From a virus: a DNA stretch of 31,279 nt. The stretch is taken from positions 1 through 31,279 of IMG/VR virus record IMGVR_UViG_3300042865_000891, one strand, 5' to 3'. Positions 23 through 25,826 of this stretch are shown in pieces; position 1 is the first letter of the stretch, and each line of letters starts with the position of its first letter. The position numbers were made by a program, and so were the translations under genes. Under the pieces are notes generated by a model. That model saw only the letters and a program-made list of their open reading frames with translations, searched no databases and was not told where the DNA came from.

Positions 23-2548
23 CTAACTAAAAAAATCTTCAATACTATTCATTCGTTCATGAGACCAACCAACAGCTTCTAACATACCATTTAATGGGTC
101 TAAAAATGTTTTTTCGTACTGTTTCTCGTAATCAACATACTTATCCAACCCAAATTCAGGAGGTAATCCAACTGAAAATGAAATTACTTCATTTTTTAAT
201 GGATTAGGTTTTTTCAAATAACAAAACTTAATATTCTCACCTTCACCAATATTTTCATACTTATGCTGAAGATTTAATTCTTTAAGTCTATTATTATATA
301 GAATAGCTCCTTTAGTATGAATTGGGCAACCGCTGGCATACAATGTTTTTGAATCACTATATTTTTCAATACCATTTACGCCACGCGGAAATGAAATTTC
401 TTCAACAGAATAATTGTAAAATTCAGATTTAACACTGGAAACGAAATCCTGAACATCAGATTCAGTACCATTTAAGATTAAACCTACAGATTTCTTTAAT
501 TTATCTCTAATAACTTTCGGTGTTGAAGATTTAACAACTTCTAGACCCATAATTTTTAATTTAGGTTCATTATACACAACACCTTCATTTTCGTAAACGT
601 TTAATGCATAACGCTTTTTACCAGTCCAAAAACCTTTAGAACTAATCGCTTCTAATTTAAATGAAATACAATCTCGATGTACATTTGTATACCGCTGAAG
701 ATCGTAACAACATTCATTAATGATTGGATCAATCTTTTCCTTACAAATTTTACTTAGTACAGGAATAACGTCCTTAACATCTTTATCTGAATAAAATTTA
801 TCAACAATCGGCTCAAGCGTTAAATAAATTGAATCTGTATCTTGATAAATAACCCAAGGATATTGAGTTTTAAATAGAGAATTCAATTTTTTATCTACAT
901 ATTCACCAACGCTGATAATAATATATTGACCAGATAAAGTTACAGCTCTAGCATTTTCTAAAGTATAATATCTAAAGAATGCATTACCTAGTGCGCCATA
1001 CAAACTATTCATAGCAATTTTAAATGCCATTTGTTCGTTATTATATTTTGAGATTAAATTATGTAATCGTTTATATTCAGCTTTAGCTTCTTTTTTATCT
1101 ATTTTAGAACCTTTTAATAATTCTAATTCGCTCTCATAACGCAACATTGTTGATTTTGCTTCTTTACGTTTTTTCATGTAAATATCAATCAACTCAGGGA
1201 TCATACCAACTTTATCTTTTCTATACATAGCACCATTAGCTGCTACAGTATATTCCTCAGGAAAATCGTATTCTTTATTCAGCAACCCTTTAGTTGTAAT
1301 GTTACCATCAAACATACCAACAAAGGTCTCTAGGGATATGTTCCAGGTCTGCATAATACTTGGATACAGACTGGTAGCATCAAAAGCAGTAACCCACTTG
1401 TAGAATCCTGGAATTGGTTCACGGACGAACGCTCCTTCAAACTGTTCTGATTTACTATTCTTAGATCTTGGTGGAATAACAACATTTTTAGATTTCAAAT
1501 GATTAAAAATAATTGAATCCCACATACGAATTTGACTGAATACGTCACCATAATTAACTTTTGCCAAATAAGACGTAGTTAAACATAGTTCGAGCAATTT
1601 CATTTTGTCTTCAAGTTCATCTACTCTATCGCAATCGATAGTGTTATATAAGACAAATTTATTCCACCCATAAGTATAAAAATCTTTAAACGTATCAAAT
1701 TCGCTATGATCTAATTTACCACAATTTAATTCAACTTGAGCAATAGTTTCTAAACGATAATTCTCTTGTTTTGTATAAGTGTATTTTTTGTATAAATCTC
1801 TAAAATCAACAACAGGAACCCCAACAATTTCATAAAGAGTTGTAGCTTTACCATAATCGTCTTTAGTTTTTCGTTCTTTAATACGATTCCAGGGACTTAA
1901 TTCTTTAAGTCTATCTTCACTACAAATATTTTTAATTCGATTTACAAGATATTTTATATCAAATCCTTCAACATTCCACCCTGTAATAATATCTACATTA
2001 GAACGTTTCCAGAAATCGACAAATTGATTTAATAATGAATATTCGTCTTGACATAAAATTAAATCACAATTTTCTATTGGATCTCCAGTGTATTCTCTGG
2101 ACATAAATGTTGTATTGCGTTTTGTTTTCATGTTCTTCATAGTAATAAGAAGAACTTCTTCACTTGCTTGATCAGGATTAGGAAAACCAGATTGTTCTGT
2201 TGCAGTTTCAATGTCAAGAACAAATGAATTAATATGATCCATACTCCAGTCAATCAGTCCAGTAAATTTATCAGAAATAAACTGGACATCAAAACCTATA
2301 TCACCATAAATTTCAAAATTATCTACATCAGAATATCGTTTAATAAAATCTCTTGTTTCACTAATACTTCCTGGTTGAATTTCTTCTACATATTGACCGA
2401 AAAGATTTTGCCACTCACTTTTCTTATTAGATTTCACATAAACTTTAGGCGAGTATTCTAATTTAAATTGAACTCGTCTACCATCTTCAATTCCCCTATA
2501 AAGAATACTATTACCTAAAATTGATACATCTGTGTAAAAATTTGACAT
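23..2548 (-). CDS. 43: Family B replicative DNA polymerase (gp43)
   Basis: Replicative DNA polymerase with proofreading exonuclease. Visible exonuclease motifs are DIE at residues 112-114, GWNVEGFDIKYL (Exo II) and YNTIDCD (Exo III region). Polymerase motifs are DATSLYPSI (motif A), KIAMNSLYGALG (motif B) and YQDTDSIY (motif C, catalytic DTD). The C-terminus would carry the sliding-clamp contact. At 841 residues it is slightly shorter than T4 gp43 (898). The ATG follows directly on the stop of the upstream small gene, so the two are probably translated together. It is the last gene of the replication block that also encodes clamp, clamp loader and RegA. No intein or intron interrupts it. Confidence 0.97.
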   Translation of the reverse strand: MSNFYTDVSILGNSILYRGIEDGRRVQFKLEYSPKVYVKSNKKSEWQNLFGQYVEEIQPGSISETRDFIKRYSDVDNFEIYGDIGFDVQFISDKFTGLIDWSMDHINSFVLDIETATEQSGFPNPDQASEEVLLITMKNMKTKRNTTFMSREYTGDPIENCDLILCQDEYSLLNQFVDFWKRSNVDIITGWNVEGFDIKYLVNRIKNICSEDRLKELSPWNRIKERKTKDDYGKATTLYEIVGVPVVDFRDLYKKYTYTKQENYRLETIAQVELNCGKLDHSEFDTFKDFYTYGWNKFVLYNTIDCDRVDELEDKMKLLELCLTTSYLAKVNYGDVFSQIRMWDSIIFNHLKSKNVVIPPRSKNSKSEQFEGAFVREPIPGFYKWVTAFDATSLYPSIMQTWNISLETFVGMFDGNITTKGLLNKEYDFPEEYTVAANGAMYRKDKVGMIPELIDIYMKKRKEAKSTMLRYESELELLKGSKIDKKEAKAEYKRLHNLISKYNNEQMAFKIAMNSLYGALGNAFFRYYTLENARAVTLSGQYIIISVGEYVDKKLNSLFKTQYPWVIYQDTDSIYLTLEPIVDKFYSDKDVKDVIPVLSKICKEKIDPIINECCYDLQRYTNVHRDCISFKLEAISSKGFWTGKKRYALNVYENEGVVYNEPKLKIMGLEVVKSSTPKVIRDKLKKSVGLILNGTESDVQDFVSSVKSEFYNYSVEEISFPRGVNGIEKYSDSKTLYASGCPIHTKGAILYNNRLKELNLQHKYENIGEGENIKFCYLKKPNPLKNEVISFSVGLPPEFGLDKYVDYEKQYEKTFLDPLNGMLEAVGWSHERMNSIEDFFS

Positions 2549-4537: not shown

Positions 4538-4938
4538 TATTTTTTCACTTTCCCAATATTATATTTACTAACCAAATTGTATTCATGTTTTTCTTTATAT
4601 GAAAGAATCTTAATTTGGCTAATTGGAACTAATGGAGATTTACATTCATCTTGATTTCGTATTTCCAATAATTCCCAATCTGCTAATAATTTAACAATAG
4701 TATTTCTTCTGGCAATATCATTTTCGCTAATATCATGAATTTTATTATCTAATCCAAATAATTCCTTAAAATGTATAATTACATACCTACCTTGTTTATG
4801 TAAAATATGACAAGATTGATATAATGTTTTATCTTTTTTTGATAAAACACCAATACGAGATAAAGTTTCTTTGATTTTTAAAAAATCATTTTCATCAATG
4901 AACACTTCTATTCCGAATCCATTAAAAATATCACTCAT
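4537..4938 (-). CDS. regA: RegA translational repressor
   Basis: In T4, RegA binds start regions of early mRNAs and blocks their translation. This 133-residue protein aligns well with T4 RegA: DFLKIKETLSRIGVLSKKDKTLYQSCHILHKQGR matches the T4 segment with KVKETLTRMG, DKVLYQSCHIL and KKG. The later parts HFKELFG, RRNTIVKLLADWELLEI and SYKEKHEYNLVSKYNIG also match. It overlaps the end of gene 62 by ATGA, the T4 arrangement in which RegA controls its own neighbours 44, 62 and 45. A 7-11 residue Lys-rich tail extends past the T4 end. Confidence 0.95.
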   Translation of the reverse strand: MSDIFNGFGIEVFIDENDFLKIKETLSRIGVLSKKDKTLYQSCHILHKQGRYVIIHFKELFGLDNKIHDISENDIARRNTIVKLLADWELLEIRNQDECKSPLVPISQIKILSYKEKHEYNLVSKYNIGKVKK

Positions 4939-5321
4939 TTTATAACTCCAGTTTTATCTATAACTTCCTTAATTGTTTTTATTTGATCAGGAGTAAGAAT
5001 TCTCAATGCTTCCTTTGCTTTTTCGGAAGAATACCCGAAATATTCTTTTACACTCTGAATATCATCTGATTCGCTAGATTTATACCACTTTTGAAATGGT
5101 CGTTTCTTAGCTTTTAATGTATTTAGGTAAAAGTGGTATTGTAACTTGTTATCCAAATTTGGATAACGATTCATTTCGTTAACATATAATATTGTATCGT
5201 TATGTTGAGAAATTGCTCTATTAACGATATAAGGTTTATATTCTTTTTCGTTTTCCGGAGTTAAAATATCGGTTTTAGTTTGTAATACACTAGGTAAAAC
5301 TTCCTTGAATAAATCAAGCAT
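4935..5321 (-). CDS. 62: Clamp-loader small subunit (gp62)
   Basis: Small subunit that joins the gp44 tetramer to load the gp45 clamp. At 128 residues it is much shorter than T4 gp62 (187) but has the size and motifs of the short marine-phage form: PYIVNRAISQHNDTILYVNEMNRYP, a helical KLQYHFYLNTLKAKKRPF segment, and VKEYFGYSSEKAKEALRILT near the C-terminus. A very strong AGGGGG ribosome-binding site precedes the ATG, eight bases after the gene 44 stop. The stop overlaps regA. Confidence 0.9.
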   Translation of the reverse strand: MLDLFKEVLPSVLQTKTDILTPENEKEYKPYIVNRAISQHNDTILYVNEMNRYPNLDNKLQYHFYLNTLKAKKRPFQKWYKSSESDDIQSVKEYFGYSSEKAKEALRILTPDQIKTIKEVIDKTGVIK

Positions 5322-5329
5322 AATTCCCC

Positions 5330-6268
5330 CTATTTAAATTCCAAATCTACCATACATTCAGTAAAAAACGCCATTAAATTAATTTCATGATCAACAACAA
5401 AAGCTGTTTGATATTGATATTTACCAATCAATAAAACTAACTGTGGAATAGAATTACTTTTAAGAATGTCATTCATATTATCATATAATTTTCGATAAAT
5501 TGTATGACTATCATTATCTAAATTATCAATAACCCATTTTCTAACATTAATAAAATCTTTTTCTTTCATTGCTTTTATTAATGGAGTAATATTTAAATCA
5601 GAAACTTGAGCTAATAATCCAGCATCAATAACACCACCCATAGAATAACGTTGCAACTCATTTAATACTCTACGATTATCTGGATAATATTTTGCAACTA
5701 CCTGAGCAACAACTTCTTTATTATATGTAACGTTTTCTTGATCAAGAATAAAACAAACTCTTTTAAAAAATCGACCCATTAATTTTTGTTTATCTTCTTT
5801 AGCAATTTTCACATCAACCACAGAACATCTAGAATGTAGCGGTTCGATGATACGATTTTTATAATTGCAAGTAAAAATAAACGAACAGTTAATTGAAAAT
5901 TCTTCAATAGCGTTACGAAGCGCTGGTTGTAATGAATTAGCATTTAAATAATCTGCTTCATCAATGATAATTACTTTACGACCACCAGACAAAGAAACTG
6001 ATGATGCATAATTTTTAATTTTACCGCGAAGAACATCAATACCACTCTCATCAGATCCATTAATTACTATGTAGTCACAACCAACTTCTTTACAGAGTGC
6101 TTTCGCAATAGTTGTTTTACCAACACCTGCGGAACCAGCGATTAATAGATTAGGAATTTTACCTTGATTAGCAAATTCTTGAAAAGTTGATTTAATTGAT
6201 TCAGGAAGAACACAATCAGAAATTTTCTCAGGACGATATTTTTCACACCACAACATTTGTTCACGCAT
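5330..6268 (-). CDS. 44: Clamp-loader ATPase (gp44)
   Basis: AAA+ ATPase that opens the gp45 clamp and places it on primed DNA. It has Walker A GSAGVGKTT (residues 45-53), Walker B IIIDEADYL (100-108) and the SRC arginine-finger motif (146-148), and 312 residues against 319 in T4. The start at 6268 (MREQMLWCEKYRP) is weakly supported by GAGA; the Met four codons later would also suit, since the family begins near W-x-EKYRP. A terminator separates it from the DsbA-like gene upstream, so a promoter or read-through between 6269 and 6330 is needed. Confidence 0.97.
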   Translation of the reverse strand: MREQMLWCEKYRPEKISDCVLPESIKSTFQEFANQGKIPNLLIAGSAGVGKTTIAKALCKEVGCDYIVINGSDESGIDVLRGKIKNYASSVSLSGGRKVIIIDEADYLNANSLQPALRNAIEEFSINCSFIFTCNYKNRIIEPLHSRCSVVDVKIAKEDKQKLMGRFFKRVCFILDQENVTYNKEVVAQVVAKYYPDNRRVLNELQRYSMGGVIDAGLLAQVSDLNITPLIKAMKEKDFINVRKWVIDNLDNDSHTIYRKLYDNMNDILKSNSIPQLVLLIGKYQYQTAFVVDHEINLMAFFTECMVDLEFK

Positions 6269-6619: not shown

Positions 6620-7303
6620 TTAACCTCCGAATTTTGATGAAGTTTCTATCGTCACCCAGTACTTTAATTCACTGGTAGTTGAAGTCCATGTTGAAATACC
6701 TTTACTTGAAATCTCAACATCATAAGTATCAGGAATAACTTTTAAATTTTCAGTTTTAAACACTAATTTAAAAACTTTACCTTCAGGATCAACATCAGCC
6801 AATTCTAAAGAGTTTGTATGACTAGCATCATTAGACTCATCAAAAGTTAATAAATCAACTTTAGCTCCATCAGATTCAACAGCAATATGTGGTGCACCCA
6901 AAACACTAGCTGTTTTCATTACCCATTCCAAATCTTCTTTTGAGAATGTAAATTTAACATCTACGGACGGAAGATTAGGACGTTTTGGTGGAGCAACAAC
7001 AATCATTGATGGGTCTGTAATACGATATTTAATTTTAGAACGACCACCACGACCTTTAATAATTACATGACTAGAATCAAATTCTAATTCAGAACCTTCT
7101 TTAAACAAAGAAGTAACTGAAAGAAAATTATTTAAATCATAAATCCCGAAATCTTGAGGAATTTCTTCGCTAATAGTAGCATCAGCTAAAATATTTTTCT
7201 GAGGACTCATTGTTGAAACGGTACTACCTTGCTTAAAGTAAATACCTTGATTAATTGTTGCAAAGTTTTTTAGGATAGCAGTTGTTTCTGGAGAAATTTT
7301 CAT
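6620..7303 (-). CDS. 45: Sliding clamp (gp45)
   Basis: Processivity clamp and late-transcription activator, 227 residues against 228 in T4. N-terminal MKISPETTAILKNFATINQGIYF and the downstream FGIYDLNNFLSV segment are typical of gp45. The rest shows the repeated beta-alpha-beta clamp domains, including a short C-terminal strand pattern KYWVTIETSS. GAGGTGA upstream of the ATG is a good ribosome-binding site. A TTGACT-N17-TACAAT promoter lies 45-70 bases upstream, so gene 45 is the first gene of its transcript. Confidence 0.96.
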   Translation of the reverse strand: MKISPETTAILKNFATINQGIYFKQGSTVSTMSPQKNILADATISEEIPQDFGIYDLNNFLSVTSLFKEGSELEFDSSHVIIKGRGGRSKIKYRITDPSMIVVAPPKRPNLPSVDVKFTFSKEDLEWVMKTASVLGAPHIAVESDGAKVDLLTFDESNDASHTNSLELADVDPEGKVFKLVFKTENLKVIPDTYDVEISSKGISTWTSTTSELKYWVTIETSSKFGG

Positions 7304-10353: not shown

Positions 10354-11148
10354 TTACAATTCACCAAGATAATTTGCTACAGCAGGAAGATTTCCTTGGA
10401 AATGATAGGTCCCAACGTGTACACAATTGATCCACGGAGCCATCCAAACTTCAACTCCAATTTTTCTACACTGTTGACAAAAATGGTAATCTTCGCTAAG
10501 AACGCGATTAGATGCTTCATCAATTTCAACGTTGAAATATGAATGAATTTTTCTATCGCCACCAAAATGCGCAGTACCAACGTGATCAGGTGTATACTCA
10601 TATTGCGGGTAGGCTTCTTTGAATTTAGCAAATACTGATCTATTTGTCATCATCATACCAGTACCAATTTCAAGAACTTGAAGAGGTTCTGTTACATTAA
10701 AATGGGTTGTTCCTGCAACTGGGTTAAAAACAATGTCACCACCCAATCTTTCTAGTTCACCAGCAGATATTTCCGGATTTTTAACTATCGCTTTCTTTAT
10801 ATTTTCCCATTTAATAGTTTTCTTAGGGTATGGAGCTCCTATAATATCTTTATCTAAAGCTAACATAGCAATAATATCCATTGGATTAAAACCAATATCA
10901 GCATCAATAAACATTAAATGTGAACAATCGGAACGCAAAAATTCATCTACAATATAATTTCTAGCTCGTTGGATTAGACTTTCATTAAATAAAAATGAAA
11001 ATCTAACTTCAATACCATATTGCATACATGCAGATTGAAGGTCTAAACAAGATTTCATATATGTACCCAAACAGCTCCCGCCATACATTGGAGTACCAAT
11101 AAAAAGTTTTTTACCAATAAATCTGTCTTTTTCTAAATTAATTTCCAT
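10354..11148 (-). CDS. GT-A-fold glycosyltransferase
   Basis: 264-residue protein with a nucleotide-sugar glycosyltransferase look. The N-terminal KKLFIGTPMYGG begins the first strand. SLIQRARNYIVDEFLRSDCSHLMFIDADIGFNP carries the DxD metal/nucleotide motif (DAD) near residues 82-84. A later DVGTAHFGG / EDYHFCQQCRKIGVEVWMAPW segment resembles the acceptor side with the ED..F motif. Related genes are frequent in cyanophages and pelagiphages. It follows rmlC by 37 bases at the end of the sugar operon, so it may use the dTDP-sugar made by the upstream genes. The acceptor (virion protein, host surface, or modified DNA) is unknown. Confidence 0.82.
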   Translation of the reverse strand: MEINLEKDRFIGKKLFIGTPMYGGSCLGTYMKSCLDLQSACMQYGIEVRFSFLFNESLIQRARNYIVDEFLRSDCSHLMFIDADIGFNPMDIIAMLALDKDIIGAPYPKKTIKWENIKKAIVKNPEISAGELERLGGDIVFNPVAGTTHFNVTEPLQVLEIGTGMMMTNRSVFAKFKEAYPQYEYTPDHVGTAHFGGDRKIHSYFNVEIDEASNRVLSEDYHFCQQCRKIGVEVWMAPWINCVHVGTYHFQGNLPAVANYLGEL

Positions 11149-11185: not shown

Positions 11186-11728
11186 TTAAAAATATTCTGC
11201 ATGTTTTAACAATTTTCCTACTAAATCTTTTTGAGATACAATTACATTATCATGAATACATAAATTTATATCCGGATCCATATATGTTATAGATCTATCG
11301 CACACAGGGTCATAATAATCCGTTACCTTATACACAAATTCAGCATAATCAGAAATTGTTAAAAATCCGTGAGCAAAACCCTGCGGTATCCATAATTGTC
11401 GAGCATTTTCTGCTGATAACACAACGGAAATATATTGACCGAATGTCTCAGAAGTTTTTCTAATATCAACAGCAAAATCAATAACTTCCCCAGAAATTAC
11501 TCTAACTAATTTTCCTTGCGCTTTAGGAGGTAATTGATAGTGTAATCCCCTAAACACATTTTTTATAGATTTTGAGTGGTTATCTTGAACAAAATTTACA
11601 GGATAACCTACAGCTTGTTCAAAAACAGTTTGATTAAAACTCTCGAAAAATAATCCACGATCATCATTATATATTGTTGGTTCTATTAATAATAATAATC
11701 CATCAAGAGATAATTTAGTAAAATTCAT
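11186..11728 (-). CDS. rmlC: dTDP-4-dehydrorhamnose 3,5-epimerase (RmlC)
   Basis: Epimerises dTDP-4-keto-6-deoxyglucose. The open frame begins at 11755, but the ATG at 11728 (MNFTKLSLDG) matches the family's normal start and lies one base after the rmlA stop. The 180-residue protein has DDRGLFFESFN, the catalytic-His motif VFRGLHYQ (His63) followed by QGKLVRV, and WIPQGFAHGFLTISDYAEFVYK with the active-site Tyr region. Cupin fold and length are normal. Confidence 0.95.
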   Translation of the reverse strand: MNFTKLSLDGLLLLIEPTIYNDDRGLFFESFNQTVFEQAVGYPVNFVQDNHSKSIKNVFRGLHYQLPPKAQGKLVRVISGEVIDFAVDIRKTSETFGQYISVVLSAENARQLWIPQGFAHGFLTISDYAEFVYKVTDYYDPVCDRSITYMDPDINLCIHDNVIVSQKDLVGKLLKHAEYF

Positions 11729-11729
11729 A

Positions 11730-12515
11730 TTAGATCCAATTATAATGTGCAGCAATTTCAGTTAAATTTGAAATTTTTAAACCTTGTCTATTTTGTATTG
11801 TTGATATAAACTGACTAGCTTCTAATAATGAATCGAAAGTTCCAGTATCTAACCAAGCAACTCCTCTTCCCAATATTTCAACATTCAAATCTTGTTTATT
11901 TAAATATAATTTATTTAAATCTGTTATTTCTAATTCACCTCTACTGGACGGAGATAAAGTTTTAACATCACGAACAACATTATTTGAATAAAAATATAAT
12001 CCAGGAATAGCATAATTCGTTTTAGGTTTTTTAGGTTTTTCTTCGATAGAAACTGCTTTACCTTTTTTTATTTCAACAACACCAAATCTTTCGGGATCAT
12101 TAACATGATACGCAAAAATAGTATTTTCCACGCTTATATTAATTTTTCGCAACAATTCAGGTAAACCATGCCCAAAAAAGATATTATCACCTAGAATTAA
12201 AGCAACAGGAGAATTATCAATAAATTCTTTAGCGATAATAAATGCCTCAGCAATACCAGTAGGTTTTTCTTGAACCAAATATGTAAACGAAACTCCAAAT
12301 TGACTACCATCACCTAATAAATTTTCCATAACAGGAAGGTCTTTTGGAGTAGAGATAATCGCAATTTCTTTTATACCAGCAAGCATTAATACACTTATTG
12401 GATAATAAATCATTGGTTTATCATATATAGGCAATAATTGTTTACACACTATATCAGTTAAAGGTTTTAACCTTGTGCCAGCTCCACCAGCTAATACGAT
12501 ACCTTTTCTATTCAT
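11730..12515 (-). CDS. rmlA: Glucose-1-phosphate thymidylyltransferase (RmlA), short form
   Basis: Makes dTDP-glucose from glucose-1-phosphate and dTTP. The nucleotide-binding signature GGAGTRLKPLT (residues 10-20) and KQLLPIYDKPMIYYPIS are clear, as are LILGDNIFFGHG and VVEIKKGKAVSIEEKPKKPKTN (EKP). At 261 residues it stops about 30 residues before the end of bacterial RmlA (about 290), right after the EIA..-NWI segment, so the last helices are absent. The missing part helps shape the oligomer and allosteric site in RmlA, and regulation by dTDP-rhamnose may be weakened. It overlaps rmlB by eight bases. Confidence 0.95.
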   Translation of the reverse strand: MNRKGIVLAGGAGTRLKPLTDIVCKQLLPIYDKPMIYYPISVLMLAGIKEIAIISTPKDLPVMENLLGDGSQFGVSFTYLVQEKPTGIAEAFIIAKEFIDNSPVALILGDNIFFGHGLPELLRKINISVENTIFAYHVNDPERFGVVEIKKGKAVSIEEKPKKPKTNYAIPGLYFYSNNVVRDVKTLSPSSRGELEITDLNKLYLNKQDLNVEILGRGVAWLDTGTFDSLLEASQFISTIQNRQGLKISNLTEIAAHYNWI

Positions 12516-13467
12516 TTTGTAAATACCAATCTATTGTTTGTTTTAATCCATCTTCAAATTTAACAGTTTGTTTCCAACCTAATTTTTGTAGTTTACCTGA
12601 ATTAATATCATATCTAATATCATGACCAGGTCTATCAGCAACAAATGAAATTAATTTAGAATAAAATTTATTTTTAGGAGCAACTTTATCTAGGTAACTA
12701 CAAATCATATTTACAACTTCTAAATTTGTAATTTGATTATCACCGCCAATATTATAAGTTTCTCCGACAACACCATGTTCTAAAATTAATCTTAATGCTG
12801 AACAATGATCGGAAACAAATAACCAATCCCTAATTTGTCTACCGTTACCATATATAGGTATATTTTTTCCCTGTAAACACGATCTAATTACAGTGGGAAT
12901 AAATTTTTCTTGGTGTTGAAATTTACCATAATTATTGGAACAATTTGTTGTAATAGTTTGTAAACCGTATGTTTTATGATATGCTCTAACAATATGATCA
13001 CTAGCAGCTTTACTAGCAGAATATGGACTATTTGGTCTATATGGTGATTCTTCAGTTGAAGGGTTATCATATTCACCTAAAGAACCAAAAACCTCATCAG
13101 TTGATACATGAACAAATTTAATAGATTTATCAAATTTTTTTACACATTCTAATAAATTTGCTGTACCGAGAATATTTGTTTTAAAAAATATTTGAGGATC
13201 TTTAATAGAATTATCTACATGCGATTCAGCAGCAAAATGAATTATTGCTCTTGGTTTATATGCAGCTAACAGATATAAAATAGAATCATAATCATTAATA
13301 TTAACAACATGATTTTTTAACTGAGTAGACTTAATGGTGTCAATATAATCTGAACTTGAATAAGTTAAACTATCTATATTAACAATATCTTCATCCATAA
13401 GTTCACACCATTCAGTTATGAAATTAGAACCAATAAACCCATTACCACCAGTAACAAATATTGTCAT
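12508..13467 (-). CDS. rmlB: dTDP-glucose 4,6-dehydratase (RmlB)
   Basis: Short-chain dehydrogenase that makes dTDP-4-keto-6-deoxyglucose. NAD-binding GGNGFIGS is at residues 7-14, the catalytic STDEVFG (Thr123-Asp124-Glu125) follows, and YSASK gives Tyr149 and Lys153. NNYGKFQHQEKFIPTVI and GNGRQIRDWLFVSDHC are family hallmarks. It has 319 residues, slightly shorter than bacterial RmlB. It overlaps the peptide-deformylase-like gene by TAATG. No rmlD follows in this window, so the pathway ends at the keto sugar unless the host or another phage gene completes it. Confidence 0.96.
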   Translation of the reverse strand: MTIFVTGGNGFIGSNFITEWCELMDEDIVNIDSLTYSSSDYIDTIKSTQLKNHVVNINDYDSILYLLAAYKPRAIIHFAAESHVDNSIKDPQIFFKTNILGTANLLECVKKFDKSIKFVHVSTDEVFGSLGEYDNPSTEESPYRPNSPYSASKAASDHIVRAYHKTYGLQTITTNCSNNYGKFQHQEKFIPTVIRSCLQGKNIPIYGNGRQIRDWLFVSDHCSALRLILEHGVVGETYNIGGDNQITNLEVVNMICSYLDKVAPKNKFYSKLISFVADRPGHDIRYDINSGKLQKLGWKQTVKFEDGLKQTIDWYLQNE

Positions 13468-21883: not shown

Positions 21884-22414
21884 TTAAATTCTGGTAATAT
21901 CGTATCTTTTAAATTTAAAATTAGCAGTTGCAGTTATTGTGTGTTCAGAACCCAATCTAATATCCAAAGGTACTTGTGATAACGATATTGGAAACATATC
22001 AATAAAGTGTACTTTCATTTTAGGGGTATTATTTGCAGCTAAGATAGTTAGCTCAGCATCTGCGTATTGTGGGTATGGTACGTTCTCGCTGTATTTTGAT
22101 GCATGGTTTAAATTTGTGTATTCACTAAATTCTGTTGGAAAAGTAATCCCTCTCATCCAATCATGTACTGCCATCCAAGATTGAATTTCCTCATCAACCA
22201 AAAATTCAATATTAAATGGTTCATAAACAAGTTTATCGCCAGGAATACTTAAATCCGAAAATGGAGTATTTTGTAATGTATTTTGAGTTGATAGTCCAGG
22301 AATATTTACTGATTGACAAAAAAATTGAGTTGATGTTAATCTTGGGAATGATAGTATAAATTTTGCTGATTGTAATAGATCGTTGTTACAAACAGATGTA
22401 TCTTTAATTGTCAT
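21884..22414 (-). CDS. gp19-like tail-tube-fold structural protein
   Basis: 176 residues. The pattern KFILSFPRLTSTQFFCQSVNIPGLS, then FNIEFLVDEEIQSWMAVHDWMRGI, and a last strand block SEHTITATANFKFKRYDI follows the strand-helix-strand order of phage tail-tube and tube-like baseplate proteins (gp19/gp54 type). It differs from the true gp19 at 29832. A TATAAATA late box 32 bases upstream fits a virion role. Its place beside uvsY agrees with marine T4-like phages, where small baseplate genes sit between 23 and uvsY. The exact counterpart in T4 is uncertain. Confidence 0.75.
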   Translation of the reverse strand: MTIKDTSVCNNDLLQSAKFILSFPRLTSTQFFCQSVNIPGLSTQNTLQNTPFSDLSIPGDKLVYEPFNIEFLVDEEIQSWMAVHDWMRGITFPTEFSEYTNLNHASKYSENVPYPQYADAELTILAANNTPKMKVHFIDMFPISLSQVPLDIRLGSEHTITATANFKFKRYDITRI

Positions 22415-22477: not shown

Positions 22478-22506
22478 TTTACTTTTTTCAACATGTAATG
22501 TATAAT
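22478..22506 (+). promoter_or_regulatory. Sigma70-type promoter of the plus-strand cassette
   Basis: TTTACT at 22478-22483, 17 bases, perfect TATAAT at 22501-22506. The start codon of the dioxygenase follows 40 bases later with TGGAG as ribosome-binding site. It is divergent from the late promoter just to its left and would be active with unmodified host polymerase, so early. Confidence 0.75.
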
Positions 22507-22545
22507 AAACTTGTTGAATGTTTTTTTAAAATGATGGAGTTATAG

Positions 22546-23928
22546 ATGGTACAAGTAGTAGTTTTAAGGCCAGAAGAAGTCAAACCAAGACCGGATTTAG
22601 TCGGGAAATGGTTAGACCATACACATTATCACACTTTAGTGGAAGAAGATTTTGATTTATATCTTCCTCCTGAATGTTCAGATTTTACCGCAGAAGAAAA
22701 TTGTGATAGAAATATGGTATGTAATTCATGTACTAAAGGATTAACAGAAAAAAATATTGTTTTTAAGTTTAGAAAAAATTTCTTTAATAAAGAAGAAGCA
22801 GCAGCTGCATATGCCGGTTTAAGGGATGCTGCGGTAGAAACTCAAAATAGAGGTATGGCAGGTGGTCCAAGAGATGGAACCTGTGCTGGTAGAGAATGGG
22901 TTAAAGATGAACAATTCGATATTCTTGAATTTTTCATTAAAAATAACTCAAAAGATATTTTCGGTAATTATGACCCAAAAAAAGAAATTGATTCAATTAG
23001 AGCGAAATATAAAACTTTAAAGTCAGATGAAAGTCGCGGAGTTGTTTGGTTAGCTGAAAAAGTCAAACAGAATAATTTTGTATTTAATGAATTTGCTGAT
23101 GCTCTTTGTTCAGAATCTCCAGAAATAGCTAAAGAAAGAGCTCAAGATATTTTGGATAACTATATCAGCAAAACAACTTATGCTAATGTTGTTAATTCTG
23201 GAATTGCTGGTTGGTATGATAGATACCCTAGGATTCCATGGGGAAGAGCAACTTCTTATACAAGAGATAATCCAGAAAAGTTTGCTAAAGCATATCCTTT
23301 TCTACAATCCTTAGCTAAAGGATTTAATGATATGTTGCCTTGGCGATATGGAAACCAAAAACGTGCTGCTGAATCTATTGATCCGAAATTTGTTGTTCCT
23401 GAAACTCCATTTACAACAATTACAGTAAATAAAAATTTTAGAACAGCTGGTCATTATGACCCTGCTAATATGGAAGACGGTTTTGCTAATCTTTGTGTGA
23501 TGTCTAATAATGATGCATTTGAGGGTTGTTATTTGGTTTTTCCTGAGGTTGGGTATGCGGTAAATATTCGACCAACAGATTTATTATTGGTAAATAATCA
23601 AGCTGGTTTACATGGTAATACAGAATTAATATTAAATGATCCGGATGCTGAGAGAATTTCTATTATTGCTTTTTTCCATGAAGGTATGTTAGAACTTGGG
23701 TCATTTGATTATGAAAATACTCGTAGAGAATTTGTTGACTCTAGAAGATTAAATCCTGATCATCCGGAACAAAGATTTAGATGGAATGGAATTAGTCCAG
23801 GGTTGTGGGATTCGGATGAATGGATTGATTATTTGTTGACCCAACCAAACGGTAAAGATTGGTTACAACAATATCATAAAAATTTATATGATCGTAGATT
23901 TGGTAATAGTATTGATGCATTCTTTTAA
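22546..23928 (+). CDS. TET/JBP-family 2-oxoglutarate/Fe(II) dioxygenase
   Basis: 460 residues. The C-terminal half has the double-stranded beta-helix signature of the TET/JBP family. FTTITVNKNFRTAGHYD contains the Fe ligands His303 and Asp305, GCYLVFPEVGYAVNIRPTDLLL is the typical core strand pair, LHGNTE holds the second Fe-ligand His356, and RISIIAFF gives Arg370, which would bind 2-oxoglutarate. The family hydroxylates the methyl group of T or 5-methylcytosine in DNA. The N-terminal half is not recognised; Cys44, Cys53, Cys59 and Cys62 could bind zinc. It is one of two plus-strand genes and is followed after eight bases by a P-loop kinase. A protein-hydroxylase role is less likely because of the JBP-type core. 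Confidence 0.85.
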   Translation: MVQVVVLRPEEVKPRPDLVGKWLDHTHYHTLVEEDFDLYLPPECSDFTAEENCDRNMVCNSCTKGLTEKNIVFKFRKNFFNKEEAAAAYAGLRDAAVETQNRGMAGGPRDGTCAGREWVKDEQFDILEFFIKNNSKDIFGNYDPKKEIDSIRAKYKTLKSDESRGVVWLAEKVKQNNFVFNEFADALCSESPEIAKERAQDILDNYISKTTYANVVNSGIAGWYDRYPRIPWGRATSYTRDNPEKFAKAYPFLQSLAKGFNDMLPWRYGNQKRAAESIDPKFVVPETPFTTITVNKNFRTAGHYDPANMEDGFANLCVMSNNDAFEGCYLVFPEVGYAVNIRPTDLLLVNNQAGLHGNTELILNDPDAERISIIAFFHEGMLELGSFDYENTRREFVDSRRLNPDHPEQRFRWNGISPGLWDSDEWIDYLLTQPNGKDWLQQYHKNLYDRRFGNSIDAFF

Positions 23929-23936
23929 GGTAAAAT

Positions 23937-24476
23937 ATGAGAAAAATTTTAGCAGTGATTGGTCGTCCAGGGGTTGGTAAAACAACCCTTTTTAGAAAAT
24001 TTATTGAACACAAAGAATGGGAAAAACAAGAACTTGTTAAATTAGTTCCTAGTCTGTATAATAAAGAATTAGATTTACATATTCTAGGTAAATATGAAGA
24101 TGGTGAAGTATTTGCTGGTACAGATAGAATGAGTATGGCAGTAATGCCTGCAGCTGTTGAATTTGTAAAATCAGTAAACTCAAATATTATTTTTGAGGGA
24201 GATAGGTTAACAAGTTCAACGTTCTTTGATTTATTATCTTCTTTACCCGATACAGATTTTCAAATTTTTGTTATTACAGCAAATGAAGATTTATTATCAG
24301 AAAGATACGAAGAGCGTGGATCTAATCAATCAGAAACTTTCTTAAAAGGTAGAAATACTAAAATTTCAAATATACAAACAAATATGGAATTTATGTTTAT
24401 TTCTGAAACTTTTTTTAATAATAATTTTGATGATCAAACAGTTATTCTTGGTAGGATAGAACAATTCTTTAAGTAA
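23937..24476 (+). CDS. P-loop kinase, candidate DNA-base (hydroxymethyl) kinase
   Basis: 179 residues. Walker A GRPGVGKTT is at 9-17, IIFEGDR is a Walker B-like strand, and a charged LID-like segment ERYEERGSNQSETFLKGRNTK follows. Overall shape is that of small nucleotide/metabolite kinases. Phages with hypermodified thymidine encode P-loop kinases that phosphorylate 5-hydroxymethyluracil in DNA. Pairing with a TET/JBP oxygenase suggests this kinase acts on the hydroxyl group that enzyme creates. The family assignment beyond P-loop kinase is inference. The ribosome-binding site AAGGT overlaps the dioxygenase stop, so the two genes are co-translated. A bidirectional terminator follows. Confidence 0.75.
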   Translation: MRKILAVIGRPGVGKTTLFRKFIEHKEWEKQELVKLVPSLYNKELDLHILGKYEDGEVFAGTDRMSMAVMPAAVEFVKSVNSNIIFEGDRLTSSTFFDLLSSLPDTDFQIFVITANEDLLSERYEERGSNQSETFLKGRNTKISNIQTNMEFMFISETFFNNNFDDQTVILGRIEQFFK

Positions 24477-24479
24477 AAG

Positions 24480-24505
24480 AAAAGGGAGCCGAAGCTCCCT
24501 TTTTG
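24480..24505. terminator. Bidirectional terminator between the cassette and gene 23
   Basis: Stem GGGAGC / GCTCCC with a CGAA loop (TTCG on the minus strand). T runs follow on the plus strand (TTTTT) and on the minus strand (TTTTC). It ends both the plus-strand cassette and the minus-strand capsid transcript. Confidence 0.92.
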
Positions 24506-24527: not shown

Positions 24528-25826
24528 TTACATCAAATTTTTCACTGCAAAAATTCTGTAATAGTTGTTGCTACGAGGAGTAATAGCACCCAAGCCTTGA
24601 GTTAAACCTTCAGCGAATGGGTTTGCTACGATACCGTAACGAGTTTTGAAACCAATTTTTGGTTGGAAAGTACCTGGATCAACCGCACGAACCATTTGTA
24701 AAGGAACGTATGGGCAGTAGAAAATACCTGAGTCATAAGGGCTTGTACCTTTATAACCAACAGTTACTAATTCTACGTTTTGAGCAGAACCACCAAAATA
24801 TGGATCGATGTAAACTTTGATGCGACCATGTAACAAACCAGCGAAGGTGTTACCAGTATCATCAACAGTTAAATCAGCACTTAAAGCAGGAGTATATTGT
24901 AATACACCAGCCATAGCTAACGCTGAAGCAACGTCTGAAGAAACGATCAAAATGTTACCTTTACCACGACGAGTTGCTTTTGCGATTTGATTCGCTTCGC
25001 GTTCGATATGATAAATTAAACCTTTAAATCTTTCAACTGACCAACGGCCATTAGAGTCTGTATCTAAATCGAAAACACCTGAAGTAACAGTACCGAATTG
25101 AGCACCTGGTTTTGCAACTGTGTAGATAGTACGAATAACTTCACGGTTCATTTCAGCTAAGATTTCTGTAGACAGAATATTTGATAATTCTGTTTCAGCA
25201 TCTAAACCATGAACCGCTTTCAAGTCTTGTGCCATTTCTAAACTGTATTCAGCTTTTAATGCGCGAGTTTTTGCAGAAACAGTAACTTTCTCGATTGAGA
25301 TAGCCATTTGAGCAAACGCAGCATCCAATGCTTCACCAGTAGCAGTAGCCATACCAACACCAGTATCAAATGATGTGTTAGCTAAAGGACCAGTTGAGCC
25401 AACAGCTGAGTTAGCAATACCGCTTGGAACTGTACCATTAGTACCAACAATACCTGAGAAGATAGTGTTAGCTTCGTTGTAGAATGCTTCATCACCTGAT
25501 TGTGTGCCATAACGTGAACGTAAAGCAAAGATCAAACCAGTAGGACCAGTCATTGGCTGAACGCCAGCAACGTCATACGCGATCAAGTTAGGTAATGCAC
25601 GACGAACCAAGCTGATTAAGATAGGATCAAAGTTAGAAATACCACCAGCAACGTTAGTTGGAGCAGTTTCGTTCAAAGTTTGACGATCTTGTTCCATTGC
25701 GATTTGTTGATTTTCCAATACAATAGCAGTAACTGCTTTTTTGTATGGATCAGCGATTTTAGCCATTTCAGGATGTTCCAAAATTGGACTCCATTTAGCT
25801 TCTAATTCTTCATTTAATAAAGCCAT
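24528..25826 (-). CDS. 23: Major capsid protein (gp23)
   Basis: 432 residues. SLVRRALPNLIAYDVAGVQPMTGPTGLIFALRSRYG is the gp23 signature, with the expected ending IFAVKNLM. The N-terminal 53 residues (to TLNE) are a delta domain rich in helix. L-N-E at 51-53 followed by Thr fits the (L/I)-x-E cleavage rule of the gp21 protease, so mature capsid protein would begin at Thr54. AAGGAG precedes the ATG. Base composition is less AT-rich than its neighbours, as expected for a very highly expressed gene. Confidence 0.97.
   Translation of the reverse strand: MALLNEELEAKWSPILEHPEMAKIADPYKKAVTAIVLENQQIAMEQDRQTLNETAPTNVAGGISNFDPILISLVRRALPNLIAYDVAGVQPMTGPTGLIFALRSRYGTQSGDEAFYNEANTIFSGIVGTNGTVPSGIANSAVGSTGPLANTSFDTGVGMATATGEALDAAFAQMAISIEKVTVSAKTRALKAEYSLEMAQDLKAVHGLDAETELSNILSTEILAEMNREVIRTIYTVAKPGAQFGTVTSGVFDLDTDSNGRWSVERFKGLIYHIEREANQIAKATRRGKGNILIVSSDVASALAMAGVLQYTPALSADLTVDDTGNTFAGLLHGRIKVYIDPYFGGSAQNVELVTVGYKGTSPYDSGIFYCPYVPLQMVRAVDPGTFQPKIGFKTRYGIVANPFAEGLTQGLGAITPRSNNYYRIFAVKNLM

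Follow-up and report, generated by a model that had tools for sequence, protein, structure and literature searches.

A putative TET/JBP oxygenase and DNA kinase cassette in a variable island of T4-like phages

Introduction

In the DNA of phages M6, ViI and PhiW-14, a DNA kinase phosphorylates 5-hmdU, and other modifications then follow (PMC6449724). The locus described here resembles the M6 and PhiW-14 pathway of 5-hmdU kinase and amino acid:DNA transferase (ADDT) in having a homologous kinase of the phrog_800 family, and in the presence of ADDT genes in related phages. In PhiW-14 (L071, 31347-33855), the phrog_800 kinase gene also adjoins gp23 on the opposite strand, a layout like that of our locus. 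However, the hydroxymethyl group is here predicted to be made on the DNA itself by a TET/JBP oxygenase (hereafter TET), and a thymidylate-synthase-family gene (PF00303), a possible source of hydroxymethyl or methyl precursors, was detected only once among 19 records, in Cr30. The locus further differs in lacking ADDT, and the TET phages searched have no HMUDK_hel partner (PF18723), which was found only in M6 and PhiW-14 among 17 records.

Rhodococcus phage Tonitrus, which has a predicted thymidine hypermodification pathway, contains the same enzyme combination as the TET-ADDT-kinase loci discussed below; aGPT-Pplase2, a member of its cluster, bears an earlier name for the ADDT family. That cluster comprises a ParB-like nuclease, a tet-like J-binding protein, aGPT-Pplase2 and a 5-hmU DNA kinase (PMC11955845), and the pairing of these enzymes is therefore not new. 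Tonitrus differs in being an actinobacteriophage with the cluster in the first five genes of its genome, not in a T4-like capsid-region island, and its pathway is known from annotation only. Phage clusters in which TET and TAGT enzymes hypermodify 5-methylcytosine (5mC) were reportedly described in a PNAS study of 2021; some same-site relatives of our locus also combine TET with a TAGT family, but the clade to which it belongs has no linked C5-methyltransferase, and in our locus a kinase takes the place of TAGT. Finally, kinetoplastid base J is made by an oxygenase of the same Pfam family (JBP1/JBP2) followed by a glucosyltransferase. This resembles the TAGT-bearing relatives, whereas the phage setting differs and the kinase/ADDT branch has no counterpart in base J synthesis.

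The window analysed here is the whole of record IMGVR_UViG_3300042865_000891, a 31,279-base fragment of a T4-like phage genome. It contains a two-gene cassette whose products very probably catalyse the opening two reactions in a post-replicative hypermodification of the phage DNA. What is new is the exchange of modules behind a constant oxygenase and the occurrence of clamp-type C-terminal tails.

Results and discussion

Organization of the cassette

The features of the window are collected in Table 1. An ORF check agreed with the first-pass annotation that the oxygenase and kinase genes are the only convincing plus-strand genes in the window. They are separated by 8 nt, with AAGG just upstream of the kinase start, and both are under purifying selection (dN/dS 0.09-0.14).

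Table 1. Coordinates of the cassette, its borders and other features of the window
Feature	Position	Strand	Remarks
gp43-like DNA polymerase	23..2548	-	C-terminal tail NSIEDFFS, resembling TET tail NSIDAFF
Probable gp45-like sliding clamp	6620..7303	-	Cluster c10; presumed tail partner
RmlC-like	11186-11755	-	
RmlA-like nucleotidyltransferase	11730-12515	-	
RmlB-like dehydratase	12508-13467	-	
gp19-type tail tube gene	21884..22414	-	Left border of island; position conserved in relatives
Sigma70-like cassette promoter, TTTACT-17-TATAAT	22478..22506	+	10/12 consensus; kept in aligned close relatives
TET/JBP 2OG-Fe(II) dioxygenase	22546..23928	+	460 aa; PF12851, invariant catalytic residues, Foldseek matches
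TET tail codons (SIDAFF) and stop	23908..23928	+	Putative sliding-clamp-binding tail
P-loop kinase, predicted hydroxymethylpyrimidine-DNA kinase	23937..24476	+	179 aa; PF18751, phrog_800, model pLDDT 92.8
Bidirectional terminator hairpin common to cassette and gp23	24480..24503	.	Stem invariant in 11/11 loci
gp23 major capsid gene	24528..25826	-	Right border of island

The cassette had also been credited with a promoter and a terminator of its own, and of these only the promoter is retained. Promoter-like sites are no more frequent in the AT-rich region than expected (17 found against 15.4 in shuffled sequences), so that the count by itself does not support the promoter; its support comes instead from its conservation in aligned close relatives. 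It would suit use by a sigma70-type polymerase in the early or middle phase of transcription, and the opposite-strand gp19 gene has a conserved T4-type late promoter (TATAAATA, minus strand). The loop of the downstream hairpin varies (CGAA, TTCG, CTCG) around the invariant stem, and by its shape the hairpin should terminate transcription in both directions. Because T-runs flank it on both sides, gp23 is probably terminated there too, and a terminator private to the cassette was rejected.

The oxygenase

The upstream gene product matches Tet_JBP (PF12851; E 1.2e-23, 83.6 bits against a cut-off of 34.9), and is a full-length match to phrog_24024. The four residues initially assigned to a JBP-type core, H303-x-D305, H356 and R370, are all invariant in 32 of 32 aligned non-redundant homologues. 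With a score above the curated cut-off, the HxD...H iron ligands and the 2-oxoglutarate arginine, membership of the Tet_JBP class is confirmed. The best Foldseek matches of the predicted structure (pLDDT 82) are TET2, CcTet, CMD1 and NgTET1, four DNA-base dioxygenases of which several have been solved with DNA. A single-sequence search of the PDB gave spurious matches only, and TET2 was recovered with a profile.

The surroundings of the active site close to H303 and R370 take two forms, HYDPAN...FFHE in the window clade, L017 and L025, and HRDAGD...YFRE in the others. As both accompany the same downstream kinase and ADDT genes, they do not settle the choice between thymine and cytosine.

The kinase

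The first-pass annotation of a P-loop kinase is upheld by an intact Walker A motif (G9-x-P-G-x-G-K15-T) and by homology to M6 gp54, Pfam's "5-hmdU DNA kinase", with the reservation that the score for Ploopntkinase3 (PF18751) is marginal, at 27.7 bits against a cut-off of 27.0. The kinase also matches phrog_800 (E 7.7e-13), a family that includes M6 gp54, PhiW-14 gp36, Cr30 gp114, Cinna gp3 and Melnitz gp8. M6 gp54 matches HMUDK_HMUD1 (PF18748), which the window kinase does not, and PhiW-14 gp36 matches no Pfam family. A profile of 26 relatives, the window kinase included, aligned with M6 gp54 at 96% probability over 128 columns that take in the G-x-Y, G-x-D-R, EG and R motifs, and more weakly with PhiW-14 gp36 (74% over 52 columns). 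Beyond Walker A, the motifs G51-x-Y53, G61-x-D63, E87-G88 and R123 are common to the window kinase and M6 gp54, and on these sequence comparisons we regard the two as homologous. The predicted structure is confident, and a fold search returned adenylate and guanylate kinases; a sequence search of the PDB was uninformative, finding mostly Walker A matches.

Two public names for these families look wrong, and correction is suggested both for "SNF2 DNA repair protein", applied to the TET family, and for "terminase small subunit", applied to the kinase family in public records and in phrog_800. The misnamed annotations are in records NC_025422, KU682439, MG450654, NC_007809 and NC_013697.

Partner genes in related phages

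Among 42 loci retrieved by the kinase alone, TET is present in the fetched stretch of 30, and elsewhere on the record in 3 more. The remaining 9 lie on short fragments, among them L022, an apparent continuation of L010, where TET is present. The linkage to TET recurs in unrelated Microbacterium phages. An ADDT cluster was found in 43 loci, usually adjoining the kinase or TET gene, and ADDT (PF18724) scored above its cut-off in 14 of 31 related records. Other partners include GATase_6, an amidoligase, a low-molecular-weight phosphatase, an inositol-phosphate-synthase-like protein, TAGT, and a GNAT-like protein with a match below the Pfam cut-off.

Two partner genes stand apart from these families. 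A 259-aa family, c48, with no Pfam match adjoins ADDT (L036, 5134-5913; L038, 221-1000), and in L036 lies between TET and ADDT; it is a candidate for a new DNA-modifying enzyme. In L012, a 480-aa gene (4716-6158) that follows TET and TAGT has a weak, below-cut-off match to the restriction-endonuclease-like MTES_1575.

Module exchange at the gp19/gp23 junction

In every locus of the window clade where the site could be seen, TET is the first gene at the gp19/gp23 junction, and the genes that follow it differ from phage to phage. A kinase alone follows in the window, L002 and L003, TAGT in L006, L008, L012, L013, L014 and L016, and a glycosyltransferase-group-1 gene in L011 and L015. Longer modules are GATase-amidoligase-phosphatase-ADDT-kinase in L004, and ADDT-inositol synthase-like-c35-kinase in L010 and L022 taken together, the overlap between the two falling in ADDT. 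Within the clade, gp23 is 84-89% identical and TET, like core genes, is 74-81% identical. In T4-like phages further removed from this clade (gp23 at most 75% identical), gp19 follows gp23 directly or almost directly with no cassette; this comparison rests on the best 80 gp23 matches, almost all of which are cassette-free. The cassette is thus a variable island of one T4-like clade, with a constant TET and exchangeable follow-on genes. A single site at which a conserved oxidase is combined with one or another set of finishing enzymes offers a test bed for phage base diversification.

Profile searches found neither ADDT (PF18724) nor TAGT in the window; since the window is a fragment, their absence, and that of a C5-methyltransferase, covers these 31 kb only. 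In the clade, only the window and two near-identical contigs combine TET and kinase without ADDT. At its 3' end, the window TET gene matches the corresponding end of the L004 ADDT gene at 19 of 21 nt, with the kinase gene next. Judging from this alignment, ADDT was probably lost from the window by a deletion across short homology.

Clamp-type C-terminal tails

The window TET ends in SIDAFF, which resembles the end of the window's gp43 polymerase (SIEDFFS) as well as that of T4 gp43 (SLDFLFG); T4 gp55 carries SLDFLYE. The gp43 and gp55 tails are known, interchangeable gp45-binding epitopes (PMC2988020; PMC9690074). The probable window clamp shares family and place with the annotated DNA polymerase processivity factor of Cr30 and sliding clamp of DLP6. 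The polymerase tails served as template for a motif, [LIMV][DE]xF[FLMIVY] within the last eight residues, which was counted in non-redundant proteins. It occurs in 5/5 DNA polymerases and 4/9 gp55 proteins (the clamp clients), in 23/31 TET, 7/7 GNAT and 14/27 ADDT proteins, in 5/9 of the TAGT families, in 2/3 c48 proteins and in the single 446-aa glycosyltransferase (1/1). It is absent from GATase (0/10), amidoligase (0/4), phosphatase (0/4) and inositol synthase-like (0/6) proteins. The background is 2 of 425 proteins in 250 other families, and 0.2% of internal eight-residue windows. The modification families except the kinase thus stand at 52/117 against 2/425 (Fisher p about 4e-37, a descriptive value, since inspection of the TET and ADDT tails preceded the choice of motif).

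Resemblance within a single phage is also found in DLP6 (polymerase TLDSFF, TET TLGDFF) and in PhiW-14, where the polymerase ends in KLGAFFV and the kinase in GLGGFFKG. The tail is lacking in the TETs of two phages outside the T4-like group, HTVC112P and Cinna, and in those of S-CBWM1 and Cr30. A clamp tail is not claimed for the kinase, in which only one of 27 sequences, that of the window lineage, fits the motif, within a predicted helix.

Because polymerase-type tails, often of the form [LI]-[DE]-x-F-F, are common in TET, ADDT, GNAT and the glycosyltransferases, we infer that TET may be bound to the clamp and modify freshly replicated DNA, as may the group-transferring enzymes of relatives. 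A precedent for association with the clamp is T4 alpha-glucosyltransferase, a DNA-modifying enzyme that binds gp45 (PMC13216743). It has, however, no polymerase-type tail (its end is FKEQFDIITK). A literature search found no paper reporting clamp-type tails or tethering for phage TETs. Such tails predict a place at the replication fork for the enzymes that bear them, and may serve as a sequence mark separating the DNA-acting enzymes of a pathway from those that make small-molecule donors.

Proposed pathway and alternatives

The reading originally offered for the cassette, oxidation followed by phosphorylation, is still the best one given the Tet_JBP identity, the homology of the kinase to that of M6 and the linkage of the two genes. 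TET, probably held at the replication fork through its C-terminal clamp tail, would hydroxylate a pyrimidine of the phage DNA at its 5-methyl group, with thymine favoured and 5mC possible. The kinase would then phosphorylate the hydroxymethyl group, turning it into a leaving group. In most relatives, ADDT would put an amino acid in place of the phosphate, and further enzymes may trim or acylate the product; in others, a TAGT-type glycosyltransferase would decorate the hydroxymethyl group instead. The modified DNA may be protected against nucleases. The subsequent transfer of another group, also suggested in the first-pass annotation, is thus supported in relatives by ADDT or glycosyltransferase genes, but not in the window, where no such enzyme was found. 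With ADDT missing from the window cassette, the phage either encodes it at another genomic position or ends the pathway at the phosphorylated base. The most specific version, in which a clamp-tethered TET oxidises thymine and not 5mC in freshly replicated DNA, exchangeable modules then lead to different hypermodified thymines and the window phage stops at a phosphomethyl base, is rather doubtful as a whole.

The pathway had been left open to either thymine or 5mC, and a search for a C5-methyltransferase, one of the checks proposed at that time, tilts the choice without closing it. PF00145 is absent from 30 of 32 records (the window fragment and 29 of 31 related records), including the complete genomes of Cr30, DLP6, C48C1, S-CBWM1, HTVC112P and Cinna, and contigs of >125 kb. 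This scarcity, and the characterization of the kinase and ADDT families on thymine-derived bases, specifically on 5-hmdU, make thymine the somewhat more probable substrate. 5mC, methylated by a phage or host C5-methyltransferase and leading to cytosine hypermodification with the kinase acting on 5hmC, is the second choice and distinctly less likely, yet it keeps a place because Melnitz and G015 encode the methyltransferase. In Melnitz phages, the C5-methyltransferase, TET, a further gene and the kinase lie side by side, and in G015 the C5-methyltransferase is about 7 kb from the kinase; the Melnitz TET, however, is only about 22-24% identical. TAGT, which in T-even phages acts on glucosyl-hmC (PMC13216743), occupies the same place after TET in relatives. 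That the fold and profile matches of TET are 5mC dioxygenases carries a bias, as there is no JBP catalytic domain among the PDB matches, and for that reason the TET2 matches are not an argument for 5mC. A divergent ThyX-like gene was also seen in several relatives, and might supply a methylated or hydroxymethylated nucleotide.

Other readings change the role of one of the enzymes. The substrate of the kinase might be a small molecule, for instance a free nucleotide, and its pairing with TET a coincidence, as its adenylate and guanylate kinase fold matches could suggest; that its family mostly lacks the clamp tail found on TET, ADDT, GNAT and the glycosyltransferases also leaves some room for another substrate. 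Against this, M6 has a homologous 5-hmdU DNA kinase, linkage of the kinase to TET or ADDT is repeated in T4-like phages, and with TET extends to the Microbacterium phages, and the end of the PhiW-14 kinase resembles that of its own polymerase; we consider a free-nucleotide kinase improbable. Decay of the cassette, with ADDT lost, the kinase a relic and oxidation alone of importance, would account for the restriction of the ADDT-less arrangement to the window and two near-identical contigs, and the match between the TET and ADDT 3' ends is what a short-homology deletion would leave. However, the reading frames are intact with their catalytic residues, and the kinase gene differs from that of L003, which has the same arrangement, by only 3 non-synonymous against 6 synonymous changes, so that decay too appears unlikely. 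An oxygenase acting on protein or small molecules, for which the sole point is the diversity of the 2OG-Fe(II) superfamily, is by far the least probable reading: no tool result points there, the protein belongs to Tet_JBP, the nearest folds are all nucleic-acid-base oxygenases, and the gene is linked to DNA glycosyltransferase and ADDT families and encodes a polymerase-like clamp tail.

Other genes in the window

Three dTDP-sugar genes lie in a row on the minus strand of the window (11186-13467; Table 1). RmlC did not score above its cut-off in 17 related records, and therefore looks peculiar to the window phage; glycosylation of DNA and of a surface structure are both possible roles for this set. 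Beside it, at 10354-11148 on the minus strand, is a gene for a 264-aa phrog_1574 protein with a weak, below-cut-off match to Anp1 glycosyltransferases; members of its family were seen in 21 related loci, mostly near the gene for the sliding clamp.
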